A DNA stretch of 64,000 nucleotides, taken from contig JAPQLC010000003.1 of the NCBI GenBank assembly GCA_030826945.1, positions 186,001 to 250,000 of the forward strand, read 5' to 3'. The notes beneath the pieces are model-generated. The model saw nothing but the letters and a program-made list of their open reading frames with translations. It was not told where the DNA came from and made no database searches. How positions within the stretch are numbered: position 1 is the stretch's first letter; each line of letters opens with the position of its first letter. This document shows positions 5,370 to 16,681 of the stretch, one piece after another. Both the position numbers and the translations under genes were made by a program. The stretch is from Candidatus Thiobius zoothamnicola (GTDB lineage: Bacteria > Pseudomonadota > Gammaproteobacteria > Chromatiales > Chromatiaceae).

Positions 5370-5906
5370 CTATAAATCTTTTCGCCAAGTCACTTCCTCG
5401 CCGCCCTGCTGTCGCGCAAGCGTGCGCCCAATGACAAACAGCAAATCAGAGAGTCGATTAAGATATCCAAGAACCAATGGATTCACTGGTTCATCCAGAG
5501 CGACATAAGTCCGTTCTGCGCGTCGGCAAATGGCGCGCGCATAATGACAGTAAGCCGCCGCCGTATTACCGCCAGGCAGAATAAATTCTTTTAACGAAGG
5601 CAATGCCGCGTTTAATGCATCCAACCATTGCTCCAATTGGTCAATCCAAGCTTGGCGAGCAAATTGATGCCCCGGCATCGACAATTCGCCACCAATATCA
5701 AACAGCCGATGTTGGATGGCGCATAACATGGTTTCAATGGATGGCGGCAACTCCCCTTGCGAACGCAGAATGCCCATCATACTATTGAGTTCGTCAATTT
5801 CCCCCATCGCCTGAATACGCAGGCTATCTTTACGCACTCGCTCGCCATTCGCCAGACCCGTGTCTCCGTCATCCCCCGTTCTGGTGTAAATTTTACTGAG
5901 GCGCAT
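5370..5906 (-). CDS. Cob(I)yrinic acid a,c-diamide adenosyltransferase, PduO type
   Basis: A 178-residue cytoplasmic enzyme that transfers the adenosyl group of ATP to cob(I)alamin, making adenosylcobalamin. The N-terminal ATP-binding signature is complete (KIYTRTGDDGDTGLANGERV.K), followed by GEIDELNS and, near the C-terminus, CRRAER and LNRLSDLLFV. It starts 2 nt after the btuB stop, so the two genes form one transcription unit under the upstream cobalamin riboswitch. The pair imports B12 and converts it to the coenzyme form. Positions 5151-5369 downstream hold nothing recognisable. Confidence 0.93.
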   Translation of the reverse strand: MRLSKIYTRTGDDGDTGLANGERVRKDSLRIQAMGEIDELNSMMGILRSQGELPPSIETMLCAIQHRLFDIGGELSMPGHQFARQAWIDQLEQWLDALNAALPSLKEFILPGGNTAAAYCHYARAICRRAERTYVALDEPVNPLVLGYLNRLSDLLFVIGRTLARQQGGEEVTWRKDL

Positions 5907-5908
5907 CG

Positions 5909-7687
5909 TTAATTCAGCACATATTGTAATTCAAGACCGATAAAGCGCCCCTGAGCCGGATAACCGCTGGCTAACTCGTAACGCTCGTCGAACACATTAT
6001 GCAATTTGGCTTTCAGCTTGGAGGTCTGATTCAACGGATAAACCGCCTGAATATCCCAGGTCGTGTAAGGAGCCAGACTGATGTCAGAGAACCGTGAGTC
6101 CTGCCGTTCACTAGCATAGGTTCCCTGTAGCGCTAACCAGGACTGGTCAACTTGATAACGAAGAGCGGTATTGATTTTATTTTGCGCCCGTCGCGGCAGA
6201 TCAGTTTTTTGATCCAGGTTGATTGCATCCTGATAGACATAGTCAAACGACCAATTCCAACGCCCCAGTTGTTGCTGATAACTCAGCTCCATACCTTGAA
6301 TACGAGCCTTTTCAACTTGTTCAATCGTGTAGGTAACCGGATCACTTTCAATCAAATCATCAATTTCCGTGTAGTAACCCGTCAAACTCGTCTTGGCCTT
6401 TGGGGAGAATTGATAACGCAAACCAATTTCACTATTTATCGCAGATTCCGGTTCAAAGGCTGGATTGCCCCCAAACCCATATAAATCATTCGCTGAGGGC
6501 GTGCGAAACGCCGTGCCCAAATTAGCGTGCAAATGGATGGCCGAATCAAGTTGATAGCCCGCTGCAGCGCTCCAGGTGACATGCTGCCCATAACGTTCAT
6601 GTTCAGTCAATCGCGCGCCGCCCTGCAATCGCATAGCCTGATGACGCCAAGTATCGTGCAGATAAAATTCAACCGTTTGGTCCGTCTCATCATAACGGGT
6701 CCCGAAAGACAGCAACTCAGTACGTTGATTGGATAATGTCACCCCGGTCACCAGATTATGCCGATCCCCTAAACTGATATTGTGCTGCCAATCCAGGCTG
6801 TCACGCACCGTATCCGCATAATCATTGGATTGGTTCTCGGCCATTTTATCCAGCGTGCGGCTGACTAATAAACGGCTATCCCAAGCATCACTGAACACTT
6901 GATCGTACACGAATCGTGACACGCTGTTATGAGCATCATGATCAACCGGGTTCAAGAAAAAATCCAGATATTCAACCACCCCTTGCGTTTGGAAATGCGT
7001 CACTTCCAATGAACTGTTATCAAAATCGATGCCAAATGCACCCTGCAAAGTATGATTCTGGTATCCACGATCCATGGTTGATGCCTGACGAGAGGGATAA
7101 CCATTCGTGCTTCGGCGACTGACGCCAAAAGAGGTGAACACATCGCCTTGCCGTTGACGCAATAGCGTCGAAACATGGGATGTATCATCAGAACCCAACC
7201 CCGCGCTCAGACTGGCCATTGAAGCATTATCCCGGGGCCGGGTGAATATCTGAACCACGCCACCAATCGCAGATGAACCGTATAACGTAGACGCCGCTCC
7301 CCTGGACACCTCAATACGCTGAATGTGTTCGGGCATGAGATGTTGCAAAGCCGTCGCGCCAGTCGTGCCTGACTGTAGCGGCACACCATCCAATATGATT
7401 AAGGTATGATCGCTCGCCGTGCCGCGCATGAATAATGAACTGGCCTGACCCGGCCCACCATTACGCCCAATTTGCAGACCGGGAATGCGTTGCAAAACCT
7501 CGGTCACATCTCCCGCTTGCATGGCTTGAATGTCATCATGTCGTAAGGTCGTCGTGGAATGTAACGCACGCTGACTCGGTTCAGCATAACGACTGGCGGT
7601 AACGACGATGTCGTCCAGTTGCGTCACGTCAGCATAGCTGGACCATGACGCAAAGAAAATGATGGCAGTGATCAGTATTCGGTGCAT
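5909..7687 (-). CDS. btuB: TonB-dependent vitamin B12 receptor BtuB
   Basis: A 592-residue outer-membrane receptor. A signal peptide ends near SSYA and is followed by a TonB box-like segment (DDIVVTASR). The plug domain carries VLQRIPGLQI, RGTASDHTLIILDGVPL and RVEVSRG-type motifs (RIEVSRGAASTLYGSSAIGG). The rest is a beta-barrel ending in an aromatic-rich strand with terminal residues LQYVLN. The assignment to B12 rests on BtuB-like length and sequence, the cobalamin riboswitch upstream and the adenosyltransferase gene 2 nt downstream. No TonB or BtuFCD genes are in view. Confidence 0.92.
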   Translation of the reverse strand: MHRILITAIIFFASWSSYADVTQLDDIVVTASRYAEPSQRALHSTTTLRHDDIQAMQAGDVTEVLQRIPGLQIGRNGGPGQASSLFMRGTASDHTLIILDGVPLQSGTTGATALQHLMPEHIQRIEVSRGAASTLYGSSAIGGVVQIFTRPRDNASMASLSAGLGSDDTSHVSTLLRQRQGDVFTSFGVSRRSTNGYPSRQASTMDRGYQNHTLQGAFGIDFDNSSLEVTHFQTQGVVEYLDFFLNPVDHDAHNSVSRFVYDQVFSDAWDSRLLVSRTLDKMAENQSNDYADTVRDSLDWQHNISLGDRHNLVTGVTLSNQRTELLSFGTRYDETDQTVEFYLHDTWRHQAMRLQGGARLTEHERYGQHVTWSAAAGYQLDSAIHLHANLGTAFRTPSANDLYGFGGNPAFEPESAINSEIGLRYQFSPKAKTSLTGYYTEIDDLIESDPVTYTIEQVEKARIQGMELSYQQQLGRWNWSFDYVYQDAINLDQKTDLPRRAQNKINTALRYQVDQSWLALQGTYASERQDSRFSDISLAPYTTWDIQAVYPLNQTSKLKAKLHNVFDERYELASGYPAQGRFIGLELQYVLN

Positions 7688-10035: not shown

Positions 10036-10548
10036 ATGGAAAAATTCGAAGCTTTTTTTGAAAATTTGCTATTCAAAGCACGTTGGCTGCTTGCACCCTT
10101 CTTTTTCGGTTTGATCATCGCCATTGTGGCGCTGTTATTCAAGTTTGGCAAAGAACTGGTCAACCTGATATCCGGCTTACTCTACGGCTCATCCACTGAC
10201 TCCATACTTAGCATACTCACTCTGGTAGACACGGCTTTGCTCGCCAGCCTGCTGCTGATCATCATCTTCAGCGGATACGAAAACTTCGTCTCCAAATTCG
10301 CCCCGGAAGACCACGAAGACCGACCAGCCTGGATGGGTAAAGTTGGCTTTGCAGACCTGAAACTCAAATTGATCGGCGCTATCGTGGCGATCTCCAGCGT
10401 TGAATTACTCAAAGCCTTTCTGAACAGCGCCGCACTCACCAACGAAGAACTGGCCTGGAAAGTCGGCATCCATATTACCTTTGTCACCTCCGCCATCCTC
10501 TTCGCCTTAACCGATTACATATCCAGCAAAAGCAAAGGCGGACATTAA
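10036..10548 (+). CDS. YqhA/UPF0114 family membrane protein
   Basis: A 170-residue inner-membrane protein with three or four hydrophobic helices. Family markers are FENLLFKARWLLAPFFFGLI at the start, then DTALLASLLLIIIFSGYENFVSKF and KLIGAIVAISSVELLKAFLN. UPF0114 members have no established function. It probably shares a transcript with rimO. Confidence 0.88.
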   Translation: MEKFEAFFENLLFKARWLLAPFFFGLIIAIVALLFKFGKELVNLISGLLYGSSTDSILSILTLVDTALLASLLLIIIFSGYENFVSKFAPEDHEDRPAWMGKVGFADLKLKLIGAIVAISSVELLKAFLNSAALTNEELAWKVGIHITFVTSAILFALTDYISSKSKGGH

Positions 10549-10602
10549 ACGCCGAAAGACCAACCAGCTAAAAGCGGCCAGATAACGCCATTAAGCATGC
10601 GC

Positions 10603-12468
10603 TCAGGCGATAAGCCGCTCCTCACCCCGCTGACAGGCGATATTCACCGCAAACGCCACTTCAGTTTGCTCAGGGAATTGTTGGGCCACAATCCATACCT
10701 GGCTAACCTCTTCACCCAAATTGGCCAAGGCGACTAATGCCTTGCGAGTGCGCTCTTCATCAAAAAACGCAAAAGGTTCGTCCAAAAAGGTGAATTGGCG
10801 GCCTTTTATGGTGCGACCCAAAAGTTTTTGCGACAACGCCAGACGCAGAGCCAACATGATTTGCCGTTGGGTGCCGCTGGACACCTCCTCCAAATCCATA
10901 AAGTCCCGTTTATCGCTGGAGAAGACGCGTACGCTTAAATCATGGTCAATTTGCAAATGTTCATAACGCCCATCAGTAAAGAGTGGCAAAGTACGTGCAA
11001 CCAGATTTTTAATATCGCGGTTGAATGCATTGGATAAATGCTGGATAGCACCATGCAATAATGCCAACGAAGTATCCAGTAATGCGATTTTCGCTTGTAA
11101 CGCGTCAAATTCAGTCTGATGTTGGTCCAGCACAGACTGGAATTCCGCCTGCTGATCCAATAAGCAACGCTCGTCGTCCAAATCCTGTTGCAGATATTCA
11201 GCTTCAGCCTTCAGTAAGGCCAAAATATAGCTTAGCCAAACAACCTCCGGCTCTGTATAAGCCATCACCTGCTGCTCAGTCGCTTCACCGATGGCGACTG
11301 GATGTTTCAGAGCATGGAAATCTTGCTCATCCGGGCGCGGTGGCGTCTCATTCCGCATCGAATCCTCTGATGAGGCGACGCTATCATGCTTGTCCCCGGC
11401 ATCATATTCCGCAATCTCAACATCCATATGACGCGCATTCACCAAATGATCCATCAAATTCGCGGATTCCTGGTTGAGATGACGGATGCGATGACTGGCC
11501 CAGCGGATCCGCCAGAAAAACAACATCAATAAAACCAGACCAGCCCCGGCAGCATAAAAGAAGGCATCGTCCGGCACCTCACGCCATATTGGGATTTGCC
11601 CGTTCAAATAAGCTTCAAGTGATTCAGTGAAGGGAAACTGTTTTCCCTGAGTCAGCAATAACCCAAACGCGCCTGAAACCAGCGCAATCAGCGCCGACAT
11701 AAAACCCATAAAACGAGCGATTAACCGGCTGGTGCGTAATTTACCAATCTGGCGTTTGTTCTGGGCATAGGTATAAGCGCCTTTTTGTATCTGCCCAATC
11801 AGATCCGTTAATTGTTGTTGCTGATGATGATTCTCCGATTGCTCCTGCTCAAGCAAGGCGAAATGACCCGGCCTGACGCCAAGATCTTCAATATCCTTTT
11901 GTACGGCAGCCAATTCGCCTTGGCACTGCGCCAGTTGCGCTTGATGCCCGGCTTGCGCTTGATGGACATCATCCACCACCTGTTCCAACGGCTCAATACC
12001 GGCCATGATTTTGACGGCTTGGCTGTGCGGATGTGGCGTGGTGATTTCACGTTGCGCCAAATAAAAAGACTCAGCGAACTGCTCATAATCGTAACCCAGA
12101 ATCTTGATCAGCATGGCGTTGACATCCACCAAGCCGCGGACTATCGGCTCCTCGTCATCTGCTTTGATCAATTTGGCGCTTTGATTACCCTCCCGATCCA
12201 AAAAACGAGAGACTTGATAAGTGACCTCTTCAAGCTTAAATGTCAACTCCACCTCACAATGATTCTCTCCCCAATGTAAAACTTTTTGAATGTTTTGCGT
12301 GGTGATGGAAAAAGTGCGGCCAAACAAAGCAAAACAAATGGCTTCACCAATACTGCTTTTACCGGACTCATTTTGCCCGCTGATCGCAATCAAGCCAGTT
12401 TCCGGGACCGTGAGATCCAAGTATGAATATTTCAATAAGTTATAAGCTTTAATGCGGGTGATGATCAT
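10603..12468 (-). CDS. Rad50/SbcC-like ATPase with two internal transmembrane helices
   Basis: A 621-residue AAA/ABC-type ATPase. Walker A is GQNESGKSS at residues 31-39 after an SMC-like start (ITRIKAYNLLKYSYLDL). The ABC signature SSGTQRQIMLALRLALSQ and Walker B FTFLDEPFAFFDEER are near the C-terminus. Gln-rich coiled coil occupies about 165-245 and resumes after 320. Between them lie two clear hydrophobic helices, about 253-272 and 302-319, so the arms would be tethered to the membrane. There is no zinc hook. The layout resembles YhaN-type proteins, but no partner metallophosphoesterase (YhaO/SbcD) gene is adjacent. A role in DNA-end or membrane processes is only inference. Confidence 0.75.
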   Translation of the reverse strand: MIITRIKAYNLLKYSYLDLTVPETGLIAISGQNESGKSSIGEAICFALFGRTFSITTQNIQKVLHWGENHCEVELTFKLEEVTYQVSRFLDREGNQSAKLIKADDEEPIVRGLVDVNAMLIKILGYDYEQFAESFYLAQREITTPHPHSQAVKIMAGIEPLEQVVDDVHQAQAGHQAQLAQCQGELAAVQKDIEDLGVRPGHFALLEQEQSENHHQQQQLTDLIGQIQKGAYTYAQNKRQIGKLRTSRLIARFMGFMSALIALVSGAFGLLLTQGKQFPFTESLEAYLNGQIPIWREVPDDAFFYAAGAGLVLLMLFFWRIRWASHRIRHLNQESANLMDHLVNARHMDVEIAEYDAGDKHDSVASSEDSMRNETPPRPDEQDFHALKHPVAIGEATEQQVMAYTEPEVVWLSYILALLKAEAEYLQQDLDDERCLLDQQAEFQSVLDQHQTEFDALQAKIALLDTSLALLHGAIQHLSNAFNRDIKNLVARTLPLFTDGRYEHLQIDHDLSVRVFSSDKRDFMDLEEVSSGTQRQIMLALRLALSQKLLGRTIKGRQFTFLDEPFAFFDEERTRKALVALANLGEEVSQVWIVAQQFPEQTEVAFAVNIACQRGEERLIA

Positions 12469-12565
12469 CGGACAATCTTTAGCTGGATTGGGAAAGAACT
12501 TTCGATTCGCGCCATCGGTGAAGGTCCAGACTTTCCATGTTACAGCGCGAGGGTTTGATAAGAGA

Positions 12566-12754
12566 TCAAGGATCCTGGTGAGGCGGCAATTGCTTCAACT
12601 TATCAACCACCCACTGCATGGCCGCCTGATAATGCGGCTGATCAAAATGTTTATCGCTATTCCGACGACGTTCAAACTCAGCTTCACAGTAAGCGGTAAA
12701 TTCGTTTAAATAGCTCTTATCACCTTCAGATACCGTATGCTTTTGCATAGACAT
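12566..12754 (-). CDS. Small conserved-looking protein, unknown function
   Basis: A 62-residue acidic, soluble protein (YLNEFTAYCEAEFERRRNSDKHFDQPHYQAAMQW in two halves) with no signal or membrane segment. It lies just upstream of the membrane-anchored ATPase on the same strand, separated by 97 bp, so the two may be co-transcribed. I do not recognise the family. Its even amino-acid composition favours a real gene. Confidence 0.55.
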   Translation of the reverse strand: MSMQKHTVSEGDKSYLNEFTAYCEAEFERRRNSDKHFDQPHYQAAMQWVVDKLKQLPPHQDP

Positions 12755-12826
12755 GCTTTACCCCACGATGCTGGAACCAACCCAAGTATAAGGTATAAAT
12801 GATTCATGCTATATGGAAAACGCGCG

Positions 12827-13195
12827 ATGCTATTGAACCGATGCCAATACACATGGCATTTCACTGCGATGTTACTAGCAGTCTTATCCTATGGTTGCGC
12901 CACACAAGAGAATTATGTAATCGGAGAAAGTAGCCAGAAACTACCAGTCGGCTTCGCCTATGCCTATACGCCACCACGTTTAGTCCCAGAAAATGTACGT
13001 TGGAGCGGAGGCCAATCGACCCAACATGTCGCATGGGACAGCACCAAAAATTTTGGCCCAGTACCCAATTACTTACAACAAAGAGGCGATCAGATTTGTC
13101 AATCAGTCGGTGCCAGCAAAGCGATCGGCTACCACCCACTCGCAGAGGACTTACAAGGTAAGCCAATCAAAGGCGGTGGTTTCTATTGTGGATAA
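12827..13195 (+). CDS. Small hypothetical lipoprotein
   Basis: The chosen ATG at 12827 has GGAA 8 nt upstream; an ATG at 12806 would add 7 residues. The signal sequence ends in lipobox LSYGC. The mature part is about 98 residues, with an aromatic segment (GFAYAYTPPRLVPENVRW) and a C-terminal segment ending GKPIKGGGFYCG, a Cys pair that could form a disulfide. No known family was recognised. Confidence 0.6.
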   Translation: MLLNRCQYTWHFTAMLLAVLSYGCATQENYVIGESSQKLPVGFAYAYTPPRLVPENVRWSGGQSTQHVAWDSTKNFGPVPNYLQQRGDQICQSVGASKAIGYHPLAEDLQGKPIKGGGFYCG

Positions 13196-13368
13196 AATAG
13201 ATCGGCTGCACCAAACATAACCCAATGCATTGAATGATGATGCAAATACCGCCGAACCGATGGCAAATCAAACCAATCCGGCGGAAACTCATTACGGAGA
13301 CGACTTGCCGCCTCAGAATCCAGCGCAACGATACAACCGGCCTTTTCGTTAAATATACGACTACAAGG
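13183..13368 (-). other. Open reading frame without a start codon, downstream of the cytochrome gene
   Basis: On the minus strand a frame runs 58 codons from CGT (13359) to a TAG at 13183-13185, with protein-like composition: RIFNEKAGCIVALDSEAA, then FPPDWFDLPSVRRYLHHH and MHWVMFGAADLFYPQ. The frame opens just after a TAA and has no ATG or GTG until late. It overlaps the cytochrome gene's end in a different frame and the last codons of the opposing lipoprotein. It may be a gene remnant or chance. Confidence 0.3.
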
Positions 13369-14548
13369 TTATCGCAGCAGCGCCAATAAGTTTGGGCTGT
13401 TTCGCATACTCAGGCAACTGAGTATTAAAGCTTCTGATATTCCCAGGCAACAAGAGACTATAATAAGCTTTCGCCTCAATACGCGATATACCCTCTTTAG
13501 GCAATAAATATTCGATATCTCTCACCTCATGTGGCTTCAGACGAGAATCACCCAACACCTTGGTTGCCTTTGGAGGCGGCGCATTTTTGTTTTGATCGTC
13601 GCCTAACCTATACCAAAGTACAGATTGCTTATCCTCCTTGAGAGGATGGCCTTTAGCATTCCGCCAAACAACCTCCCCGGCATCATTGAATGCCATCACT
13701 TTAATGTAGATGTTTCTAAAAGGTGCGCCAGTCGGCAAATTGTGCGGTAATTTATTTCGCAGAGTCAGGGTTAGCCTGTTCGCGGTTTTTACCTCTTCAT
13801 TCTTCATCGTCATCAACAGCCCTCTACTGACCATTTTCGCGGTGTGGCCGCCCATGAAGCTATGATCAACCACGCCATTGGTCACGGGCATATGACATAA
13901 CTGACAATCCGTACTGCCGGGAGCGGAAGCTATTTCATCCCCCGTTTGACAAAGTGGCACTTTGTTCAAATTATTCCGCCGCTCATGGCATCCCATACAA
14001 ACCGCATTAGTTTTTAGAACCGTGGAATTTCCAACCATTTTAAACAGTACCTTCTGGCCAGCACTCTCAATCTCGGGATGAAAATTGCTATCAGAAGACG
14101 CCTGTATCACATTGTCAGAAAACGCGTAAGCGTCAACCCCAAGTCTCAAACCACCTTTTTCATTCTTTACCCCTTTAAAGGCAGTCATACTGTGACAAGT
14201 GGTGCAACCAACGCCATCCTGGTAAGCAGGCAATGCATCCATTTTCGTTTTGCCATCTCTCGCCGCAGCAGGCACATGACACTTAAGGCAAACCGGATAT
14301 TTACCCTGCTTCCTCAGACCTTCTTTAAGTGGATCACCCATAACCTTCTGATAAAAAGCGCCATGAATCGGGTCACTCAATGCCGTGCTATTAGCATGCA
14401 TGGAATGTTTCCATTGATCATAGATTTGTTGATGGCATCCTGAACAATCTTTTGCCGCCACATGCCTCAGCTTTTTTTCCTCAGCCTGAACAGGTGAAGC
14501 CAGTAGGAACATCATTGCCCATACCACAAAATGCGTTAACACGCTCAT
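13361..14548 (-). CDS. Pentaheme c-type cytochrome (cytochrome c554-like)
   Basis: The start is taken at ATG 14548, with GAGGAG 8 nt upstream, giving a Sec signal (MSVLTHFVVWAMMFLLASPVQA) and 395 residues. A frame open to 14686 would add a non-signal extension. Five haem sites are present: CSGCH, CLKCH, CTTCH, CMGCH and CQLCH. The spacing around the first four (DCSGCHQQIYDQWKHSMHA and so on) matches the cytochrome c554 / multihaem domain. The C-terminal 150 residues are haem-free and beta-rich. It is probably a periplasmic electron carrier or oxidoreductase subunit; the partner is unknown. Confidence 0.82.
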   Translation of the reverse strand: MSVLTHFVVWAMMFLLASPVQAEEKKLRHVAAKDCSGCHQQIYDQWKHSMHANSTALSDPIHGAFYQKVMGDPLKEGLRKQGKYPVCLKCHVPAAARDGKTKMDALPAYQDGVGCTTCHSMTAFKGVKNEKGGLRLGVDAYAFSDNVIQASSDSNFHPEIESAGQKVLFKMVGNSTVLKTNAVCMGCHERRNNLNKVPLCQTGDEIASAPGSTDCQLCHMPVTNGVVDHSFMGGHTAKMVSRGLLMTMKNEEVKTANRLTLTLRNKLPHNLPTGAPFRNIYIKVMAFNDAGEVVWRNAKGHPLKEDKQSVLWYRLGDDQNKNAPPPKATKVLGDSRLKPHEVRDIEYLLPKEGISRIEAKAYYSLLLPGNIRSFNTQLPEYAKQPKLIGAAAITL

Positions 14549-14689
14549 CTCAACTCTCCTCAAGAGACAGCCTTTCAAGCTGTTTATCATTCTCTCATCC
14601 AACCGTGCAATGAAAGGGCAATTCCTGAGCCACCCCTTTGACTTAGACAGATAGATATTTTTACACAACGTTAATTTTAACGGCATTCC

Positions 14690-16501
14690 CTAACCACTCA
14701 TAAAGTAAGCGGACTGGCTACTGAGATCCACCGAATCCAGTTTGAGGGATATTGCTGCATCCAACGCCATACCGCTGCGCAAGCGGATTTTGGTTTCCAA
14801 CGCCAGTTCAGGAATGATCACGGCGGCCTTACGTTCTTCCAGTGCAACAATAATGGCTTCGCCGCGCCAGCGAGGATTCTGTTGCAGATAAACCAGCTTC
14901 CAGTGCATGTTGGATTGGCGTTCAGCCCGACGGATACGGCCAGTCTGCATATCCAGTGAAGCGATCCGTTCAGCCATGGCGTCCTGTAGCAATGGCGTTT
15001 CGCCAGTTAAGTGCACGCGCAGTTGCTGATGCACCAGCAAATCCGCATAACGCCTTAATGGGCTGGTGGCACGCGCATAGCAAGGCAGGCCCAGGCCGAA
15101 ATGTGGTGCCGCGAGCAATCCGGTGTTGCTTGGCTTGAACAGGCGACGGTAAGCATACATGCCCGATAAGGTCTGAGGGTGTTGGATCTGTTCAGGCTCC
15201 GGCTGAGTGGCATGAGGAATCGCCAACTCATGTTCCGCTGCATACAAGGCCACCGCCTCGCCAGCCATTAACATGGCGTTAGTGACCATATCCCGACTCA
15301 GATTTTTCGGTAACGGGCGTATTTTGACTCGCTGTTCATATACCTTGACCGAGACTTCCGGCAAATCAATCTGCGCCGCATTGCGCGCCAGACGCCGCGC
15401 GCGATAACTGTCGGTGATGCGGGCGATGGCGGCGAAGTGCGGCTCCTCCATACTGTCGTTGACTTTTTTGTAAGTAGTGCGCTGCACTTGCACTGTGGTG
15501 AGCGCAATCTGAATATCTTTGACTTGCTCACCATCAAAACGGCAGCCAATGGATAAAGCAGGCGATTGTTTGACCAAACCCATACCCAGTTGACGGGTCA
15601 CTGAGTCCGGCAGCATCGGATAGACCCGCTCAGGCAAATAAAGATTACTGCCACGCGCGCGCGCCGCACCATCAAGCGCCGAGTCTGGCGTAATGAGCGC
15701 CGACACATCCGCGATATGCACCCAGAGATAATCGCCATCCAGACTGATGGCGTCATCCGGATCCTGATTGCCTTCATCATCAATTGCCCAGGCTGGCAGA
15801 TGCGTCAGGTCAAGTCGCTCATCAACTGGCATGGGCGGCGTCGGTAGCTCAACCGGCTGCATATCGACCCCGGCGCGGCGCGGCCATGGATTGTCAAAGA
15901 CTGTCCAGTAACCACACCGGAGTAAGAACTGATGCGCGGCTTCCGGCGTCGCATCCACATTGAATGCGTTCAGAATGCGGCTATGTGCCGCGGTATCCAG
16001 CGCGACCCGCTCGACTTCCGCCAACCGTTTGCGATCATCTTTATCCAACGAACCATCGCGCACATGTTGCAGAAATATCTCCCAGGCCTCGGCTTCACGC
16101 ACTTTGCGCGCCCGTTCCTCGCGTTCTGCGGCGACTTGCTCGGGTGAATTGACTTGAATCTGCTCTATCCCGCCCGTGAAATAAAGGCCGTCATGCAACA
16201 CACACCAGGCCATCCAGGCCGTTTCCGGCGAATAGTCGCCATAAGCAATTTCCGCCAGTTCAGCCAGATACGTTTGTTCGCCCTGAAGCAATTCCCAGGC
16301 TTCCTGCGGATCATCCGGTGTTTCACTGAGTTGATCCAGGGATTGCAGTGGGCCGACATGGAGCAGCAGCACATCTTTGTCGCGCACCTTTTTTTCTTTC
16401 CCGTTCGGTAATTGAATGGTGATTTTTTCACCAGTCTGAGTAACTAAGGCAGGATGATTTTTGTACAACACCAGACTGGCGGTGCGGATAGCAGATGACA
16501 C
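14690..16501 (-). CDS. RNB-domain (RNase II/R family) exoribonuclease
   Basis: A processive 3'-5' exoribonuclease-like protein of about 603 residues. The RNB catalytic motif is intact: DDEGNQDPDDAISLDGDYLWVHIADVS in adjoining segments, with the metal-binding aspartates of the DPDDA run. RGSNLYLPERVYPMLP and the later ATSPLRRYADLL motif follow. The N-terminus (SLVLYKNHPALVTQTGEKI) resembles a small beta-barrel. GTG at 16501 has GAGG 8 nt upstream and fits the family start better than ATG at 16525. It is smaller than RNase R and lacks its long basic tail. Confidence 0.88.
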   Translation of the reverse strand: MSSAIRTASLVLYKNHPALVTQTGEKITIQLPNGKEKKVRDKDVLLLHVGPLQSLDQLSETPDDPQEAWELLQGEQTYLAELAEIAYGDYSPETAWMAWCVLHDGLYFTGGIEQIQVNSPEQVAAEREERARKVREAEAWEIFLQHVRDGSLDKDDRKRLAEVERVALDTAAHSRILNAFNVDATPEAAHQFLLRCGYWTVFDNPWPRRAGVDMQPVELPTPPMPVDERLDLTHLPAWAIDDEGNQDPDDAISLDGDYLWVHIADVSALITPDSALDGAARARGSNLYLPERVYPMLPDSVTRQLGMGLVKQSPALSIGCRFDGEQVKDIQIALTTVQVQRTTYKKVNDSMEEPHFAAIARITDSYRARRLARNAAQIDLPEVSVKVYEQRVKIRPLPKNLSRDMVTNAMLMAGEAVALYAAEHELAIPHATQPEPEQIQHPQTLSGMYAYRRLFKPSNTGLLAAPHFGLGLPCYARATSPLRRYADLLVHQQLRVHLTGETPLLQDAMAERIASLDMQTGRIRRAERQSNMHWKLVYLQQNPRWRGEAIIVALEERKAAVIIPELALETKIRLRSGMALDAAISLKLDSVDLSSQSAYFMSG

Positions 16502-16681
16502 GCAAGATACCTCAATAATCAGCACAGACGAAAAACATGAATTTTATCAATCTGTTCAGTAATAACCCGACTTCGTTATGATAAACATAACGTTCTGACA
16601 GGTGATCATCCGCATTGAACAATCACCCCATCAGACTCATTCCAATTGTTTGTTAGCTCGTATCTTACAGGAATAACCCAC

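Follow-up and report, generated by a model that had tools for sequence, protein, structure and literature searches.

The window analysed here, a 64,000-nucleotide stretch of the genome of Candidatus Thiobius zoothamnicola, carries a gene for a Rad50-family ATPase whose coiled-coil arms contain a transmembrane hairpin and, upstream of it on the same strand, a gene for a protein of 62 residues. Our preferred reading, to which we assign a probability of roughly 0.6, is that the two proteins are subunits of one inner-membrane complex, a membrane-tethered, Rad50-like, ATP-gated clamp that works without a nuclease. The core idea of an earlier sequence-only reading of this DNA, that of a conserved nuclease-free unit in which a Rad50-like ATPase anchored in the membrane is joined by a small protein, is supported. 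The ATPase gene and the motifs of its head are as follows:

10603..12468, reverse strand: Rad50-family ATPase, 621 residues, with a transmembrane hairpin in the arms (domain, PDB and fold matches)
12352..12378, reverse strand: Walker A, residues 31-39 (K37 in 68/68 aligned members)
10861..10887, reverse strand: ABC signature region, residues 528-536 (S530 in 67/68, G532 in 66/68)
10744..10794, reverse strand: Walker B and D-loop, residues 559-575 (D563 and E564 in 68/68)
10681..10683, reverse strand: H-loop position, residue 596, glutamine and not the histidine of Rad50 (Gln in 62/68, Pro in 4, Glu in 2, His in none)

Judged by its sequence, the ATPase is a member of the Rad50 branch of the ABC ATPases, and Walker A, Walker B and the signature of a Rad50-type bipartite ABC head are all present. 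It matches the domains AAA_23 (1.6e-14), SMC_N (8e-13) and, weakly, AAA_27 (7.4e-7), the last of which scores less well than AAA_23 in the window protein and is matched by 6 of 39 ATPase members. Rad50 models match it with up to 90.8 bits, which does not reach the SbcC/Rad50 equivalog cut-off of 847; solved Rad50 heads are its best PDB relatives by sequence (family profile, E down to 3.7e-44), and the best Foldseek match to its fold, 5dny_D (E 2.4e-13), is again a Rad50 head. The H-loop glutamine stands where the Rad50 alignment has histidine. The gene is present as a single copy in its own genome (2.38 Mb in 46 contigs). The same genome also encodes an 889-residue TrlF-family ATPase (L104:2853-5522, contig G000:C21; 564.7 bits), a relative of Ppl, which is an anti-phage protein. 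In the window, a gene for a UPF0114 membrane protein (10036-10548, forward strand) lies immediately downstream of the ATPase gene and convergent with it; it is absent from the recurring neighbours in relatives.

The feature that sets this ATPase apart lies in its arms:

11653..11709, reverse strand: transmembrane helix 1, residues 254-272 (hydropathy peak 2.09; within model helix 202-274)
11563..11652, reverse strand: predicted periplasmic loop, residues 273-302 (charge pattern over 69 proteins)
11506..11562, reverse strand: transmembrane helix 2, residues 303-321 (hydropathy peak 1.84; within model helix 301-347)

The earlier description of two strongly hydrophobic helices in place of a zinc hook is borne out by a topology analysis of the kind that had been suggested: both hydrophobic peaks are found in 66 of 69 ATPases at KD >= 1.3 (54 of 69 at KD 1.6), separated by a loop with a median length of 28 residues. 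Net charge averages +3.4 ahead of the hairpin, -1.0 within the loop and +2.8 behind the hairpin over the 69 proteins, and the loop is more negative than both of its flanks in 60 of them; a negative loop between positive flanks is what the positive-inside rule predicts when the heads lie in the cytoplasm and the loop in the periplasm. In the AlphaFold2 model of the ATPase (nine sequences; mean pLDDT 80, pTM 0.49, loop pLDDT ~66), the coiled coil runs as one continuous helix through the first transmembrane segment (residues 202-274) and the second segment leads back out (residues 301-347). By reading, the window ATPase contains no CxxC zinc hook, and where CxxC does occur, in 6 of 34 relatives with a complete ATPase, it is never at the hairpin that forms the apex. 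The topology counts and the tree described below leave out one ATPase that is split over contigs (G300), and set A3 leaves out locus L079, which is near-identical to L078. We regard insertion of the hairpin into the membrane as well supported. The likening of this arrangement to YhaN-type proteins, by contrast, is unsupported here: the transmembrane pair is missing from the four YhaN-type ATPases that were sampled in these genomes (G350, G330, G240 and G247; 877-1168 residues).

The partner gene and the sequence that separates it from the ATPase gene are these:

12566..12754, reverse strand: small partner gene, 62 residues, with two helices predicted to form a hairpin (13-31 and 39-55; open reading frame, conserved family, AlphaFold2)
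12469..12565, reverse strand: spacer of 97 bp separating the two genes, where most relatives overlap (single copy in the genome)

AlphaFold2 predicts the two helices of the small protein with a core pLDDT of ~91. The protein had been described as an acidic one lying upstream, and its reading frame, position and length all stand, but the acidity is mild (pI 6.0, net charge -2) and is not conserved, the pI being above 7 in 8 of 35 small proteins, some of them with doubtful N-terminal starts. In Pfam, no family is matched by more than one of the 35 (best E 0.0028) and no kleisin match was found; NCBIfam, PADLOC and PHROGs gave nothing significant. A profile search against the PDB found nothing, Foldseek found no PDB match to the predicted fold at E <= 0.001, and there is no detectable homology to the YhaO nuclease profile. 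Some of the small proteins from six other loci (L083, L085-L087, L090 and L091) are basic, with a conserved start resembling ILSWL..RF.RR, which is possibly a membrane-binding amphipathic helix.

What ties this protein to the ATPase is the constancy with which the two genes are found together, as emerged when the pair was sought in other genomes in the manner that had been suggested. The ATPase occurs in 36 of 369 gammaproteobacterial genomes, and in 33 of the 36 the small gene lies directly upstream. Of the remaining three, G305 gives no profile match and has a divergent upstream ORF, recognised by eye, that overlaps the ATPase start, and G104 and G221 show no recognisable small gene near the ATPase. 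Matches to the small protein were found in 37 of the 369 genomes, the four outside the 33 pairs being weak (E 0.0037 to 0.0084). In a second, phylum-wide sample of 324 genomes, the small protein gave 27 matches, 26 of which adjoin the ATPase and one of which is weak and unlinked (G387, E 0.002). Eight ATPase relatives from genome contigs, at 36-51% identity, all have a small ORF upstream (seven located by tblastn, the eighth, L013, by reading), and in all eight the TGA of the small gene overlaps the ATG of the ATPase by 4 bases; three of these loci come from genomes already in the gammaproteobacterial set. When the ATPase start is set at a conserved MI motif, the same 4-base stop/start overlap is seen at 27 of the 32 loci from Gammaproteobacteria that have a small gene. 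Chance pairing is ruled out by adjacency on this scale in both samples, and the partnership of the ATPase with the small protein is well supported. Covariation between the two proteins gave a signal dominated by sequence relatedness.

The surroundings of the pair are far less constant. Apart from reading frames inside the pair, mostly antisense, no neighbour is common to more than 8 of the 36 gammaproteobacterial loci. The 97-bp spacer, being present once in the genome, is ruled out as a repeat or mobile element, and a scan of positions 10400-13000 returned 0 promoter-like sites. Some 50 bp from the small gene, and divergent from it, is an ORF for a lipoprotein-like product of 129 residues (12806-13195, forward strand) with no Pfam or NCBIfam match. 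A multihaem cytochrome-like ORF (13361-14686, reverse strand), with several CxxCH motifs by reading, lies between the pair and a gene for an RNB-domain ribonuclease (14690-16525) upstream. An RNB gene is also found upstream in the closest relatives (loci L007-L012), directly so in L009-L012. As a general partner it was rejected, since it accompanies the pair in L007-L012 (and in L060 and L061, where the genomes of L007 and L008 appear a second time) but is missing from every other relative locus compared.

Beyond the Gammaproteobacteria, the ATPase recurs in a second class of bacteria, presumably the Magnetococcia. ATPase matches were obtained in 38 of 398 phylum-wide genomes, 33 of them outside the Gammaproteobacteria; four of the matches inside that group are large SbcC-like ORFs. 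We examined 29 of the 33 loci, leaving out those of four fragmentary genomes (G394, G451, G497 and G505). The small protein is encoded upstream of the ATPase in 25 of the 29 by profile and in three more by eye, where its ORF overlaps the ATPase start; in the remaining locus, L109, the contig ends. In 27 of the 29 loci, L109 and L117 being the two in which it was not found, the ATPase gene is followed on the same strand by a gene for a PstS-family binding protein that matches PBP_like_2 (2.2e-23 to 2e-39) and whose N terminus, by reading, is hydrophobic and resembles a signal sequence. On this protein the PstS family model scores 169-201 bits, just under its cut-off of 206.6. Most of 13 junctions checked between the two genes are compatible with overlapping reading frames or with a spacing of <=4 bases, though several have alternative starts. 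Genes for ATP-grasp-like and MFS_1-like proteins often lie further upstream of the trio (L142-L152; for example L142:6955-8076 and 5723-6898), and their recurrence suggests a longer conserved cluster in this class; no phosphate-transporter permease was seen among the recurring neighbours. The proposal that the ATPase and the small protein might form a two-component unit understates what is encoded here, since a periplasmic binding protein is added to the pair. Neither the binding-protein gene nor the ATP-grasp-like and MFS-type genes have a relative (E 1e-3) in the window or in 46 gammaproteobacterial loci, a set that includes stretches of the window's own genome, so the binding protein cannot belong to the core there.

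In the mechanism that we propose, Rad50/SMC-type heads would reside in the cytoplasm and the apex of the coiled coil would end in the transmembrane hairpin with its short periplasmic loop, the hairpin taking the place of the hook and holding the tips of the arms together in the membrane. Mre11 has a Rad50-binding domain, a helix-loop-helix, with which it touches Rad50 where the coiled coil begins at its base, as described in passages of two papers (PMC7260605, PMC11661359). A separate two-helix protein that is translationally coupled to the ATPase could provide such an element and leave the nuclease out. By analogy, the small helix-loop-helix subunit probably binds the coiled coil of the ATPase at its base and couples ATP-driven engagement of the heads to movement of the arms; as the small protein has neither detectable homology to the YhaO profile nor a fold match in the PDB, this analogy is architectural only. 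ATP binding would then close the heads, most likely on DNA, or perhaps on another cytoplasmic partner, and the periplasmic loop, or a PstS-like protein in contact with it, could be the point of entry for a signal. Physical binding of the two proteins, the docking site, DNA as the target and signalling from the periplasm are the elements of this scheme that we infer. Carried one step further, a periplasmic ligand, sensed in one class by the PstS-type protein, would act through the hairpin and the coiled coils on the heads and the small subunit, and the whole would be a DNA-clamp ATPase controlled from outside the cytoplasm; we offer this extension tentatively and think it rather doubtful.

The binding protein also invites a different view of the system, in which the pair serves in oxyanion signalling, for example of phosphate, with the binding protein touching the loop and the heads relaying the signal to a cytoplasmic target that is not DNA. 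The position of the PstS-family gene, directly downstream in nearly all second-class loci and with start and stop overlapping in several, speaks for such a role, as does a short, conserved, predicted periplasmic loop, but no such gene is found near any gammaproteobacterial member examined, and the PstS model falls just short of its cut-off, so that we consider this unlikely.

A second question is whether the ATPase has a nuclease after all. The observation that the expected metallophosphoesterase gene is missing is confirmed: none adjoins the pair in the window, and SbcD (TIGR00619) has 0 matches in the window's own genome, where the five PF00149 matches are ApaH, a CpdA-like protein, LpxH, SoxB and a small YfcE-type ORF, the last assigned by reading. 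As a candidate, a nuclease encoded beside the pair was likewise rejected, with none in the window or as a recurring neighbour of the 36 gammaproteobacterial loci. The sequence-only reading would have yielded to a cognate nuclease elsewhere combined with a lack of co-occurrence of the small protein, neither of which was found in that form: no nuclease is linked, the pair co-occurs, and SbcD is present, unlinked, in 11 of the 36 relatives. Alternatively, the ATPase could be a diverged subunit of the SbcC/YhaN type that relies on a borrowed nuclease, an SbcD or YhaO encoded elsewhere, with the small protein as an accessory adaptor. SbcD exceeds its cut-off in those 11 of 36 ATPase genomes and in 32 of the 333 genomes without the ATPase (Fisher p 0.001), a mild enrichment that is evidence against a clean separation of the two, and the closest solved relatives of the ATPase are Mre11-Rad50 heads. 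Yet the SbcD gene is always on another contig, the window's own genome lacks it, and, while six more ATPase genomes have weaker YhaO-type matches (E below 1e-9), all of the matches are unlinked and 19 of the 36 have neither a full SbcD nor a YhaO-type match below 1e-9. Where the neighbourhood of a nuclease gene is readable (G254, G350, G330 and G240), the nuclease sits beside a large ATPase of its own, and two of these nucleases were confirmed as SbcD/Mre11-like. With glutamine in place of the H-loop histidine as well, a borrowed nuclease seems to us improbable.

The history of the pair bears on a third possibility. In a FastTree phylogeny of 68 ATPase sequences, 12 of the 14 multi-member families are monophyletic, the exceptions being f215, which is paraphyletic to f211, and f1, which includes unlabelled relatives and f99. 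Six plasmid records matched, all remotely and in part, with none covering 80%, and among viral contigs there was a single match, weak and partial; carriage by plasmid or phage was ruled out on these grounds. A mostly vertical tree and such remote matches are not what a mobile cassette for defence or a toxin would be expected to show. That it is nonetheless a toxin-antitoxin or anti-phage module, with the small gene as antitoxin or sensor and the ATPase as effector, would fit a gene order and overlap similar to those of toxin-antitoxin operons and generic PADLOC matches (mad3, 1.9e-18; LmuB, 8.7e-16), but is quite unlikely given this vertical descent, the absence of any PADLOC match below 0.01 for the small protein, and the fact that the closest relatives keep the pair near the RNB ribonuclease gene.

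As to the hosts, a weak clue comes from SoxB, a marker of sulfur oxidation: 12 of 14 genomes with the ATPase have a SoxB match over the cut-off, as against 54 of 144 others, counted with one genome per family and with kinship ignored (Fisher p 9e-4); G240 and G247, both of which have SoxB, were left out of this count. The named relatives that carry the ATPase include Sedimenticola and Chromatiaceae, which are sulfur oxidisers, and the association may be explained by shared ancestry or habitat.

The usual picture of Rad50 and SMC proteins is one of soluble rings, with a hook or a hinge for closure and a nuclease or a kleisin as partner. That distant bacteria encode a Rad50-like ATPase with a membrane hairpin beside a very small protein of two helices, and without a nuclease, suggests a kind of membrane-tethered machine not described so far, and our search of the open-access literature found no published description of such a protein. 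If the membrane-tethered clamp is indeed what the pair forms, then the ATPase cycle of Rad50 has been put to a new use, one linked to the membrane, and the pair, which in one class is a trio, suggests one route by which an ATPase could couple the bacterial membrane and the chromosome, a question that is usually left open.

The clamp proposed here can be set against several known systems. With PstS-family proteins it shares, in the second class, a downstream gene that matches PBP_like_2 and nearly satisfies the PstS model, but that gene is encoded together with a Rad50-like ATPase, and no phosphate permease recurs beside it. Like YhaN/YhaO, it features a Rad50-like ATPase in a two-gene operon, with a weak AAA_27 match, but here AAA_27 is not the best domain, the partner is not a phosphoesterase and no YhaO-type gene is adjacent. 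ABC-type heads on coiled coils, and Foldseek matches, connect it to the SMC proteins Smc, MukB and JetC and to LmuB of Lamassu; in contrast to the SMC proteins, it has a hairpin at the hinge position and no kleisin or kite-type partner was found, and it differs from Lamassu and the other defence ATPases in PADLOC in its vertical signal and in having neither a linked effector nuclease of the LmuA type nor a conserved third gene in the gammaproteobacterial loci. To Mre11-Rad50/SbcCD it corresponds in its Rad50-family heads (AAA_23), its coiled-coil arms and, if the Rad50-binding domain of Mre11 is taken as the analogue, a helix-loop-helix partner element. The window ATPase nevertheless departs from Mre11-Rad50/SbcCD in dispensing with a linked nuclease, in its short arms, in a transmembrane hairpin for the zinc hook and a glutamine for the H-loop histidine, and in the separate subunit of 62 residues that accompanies it.
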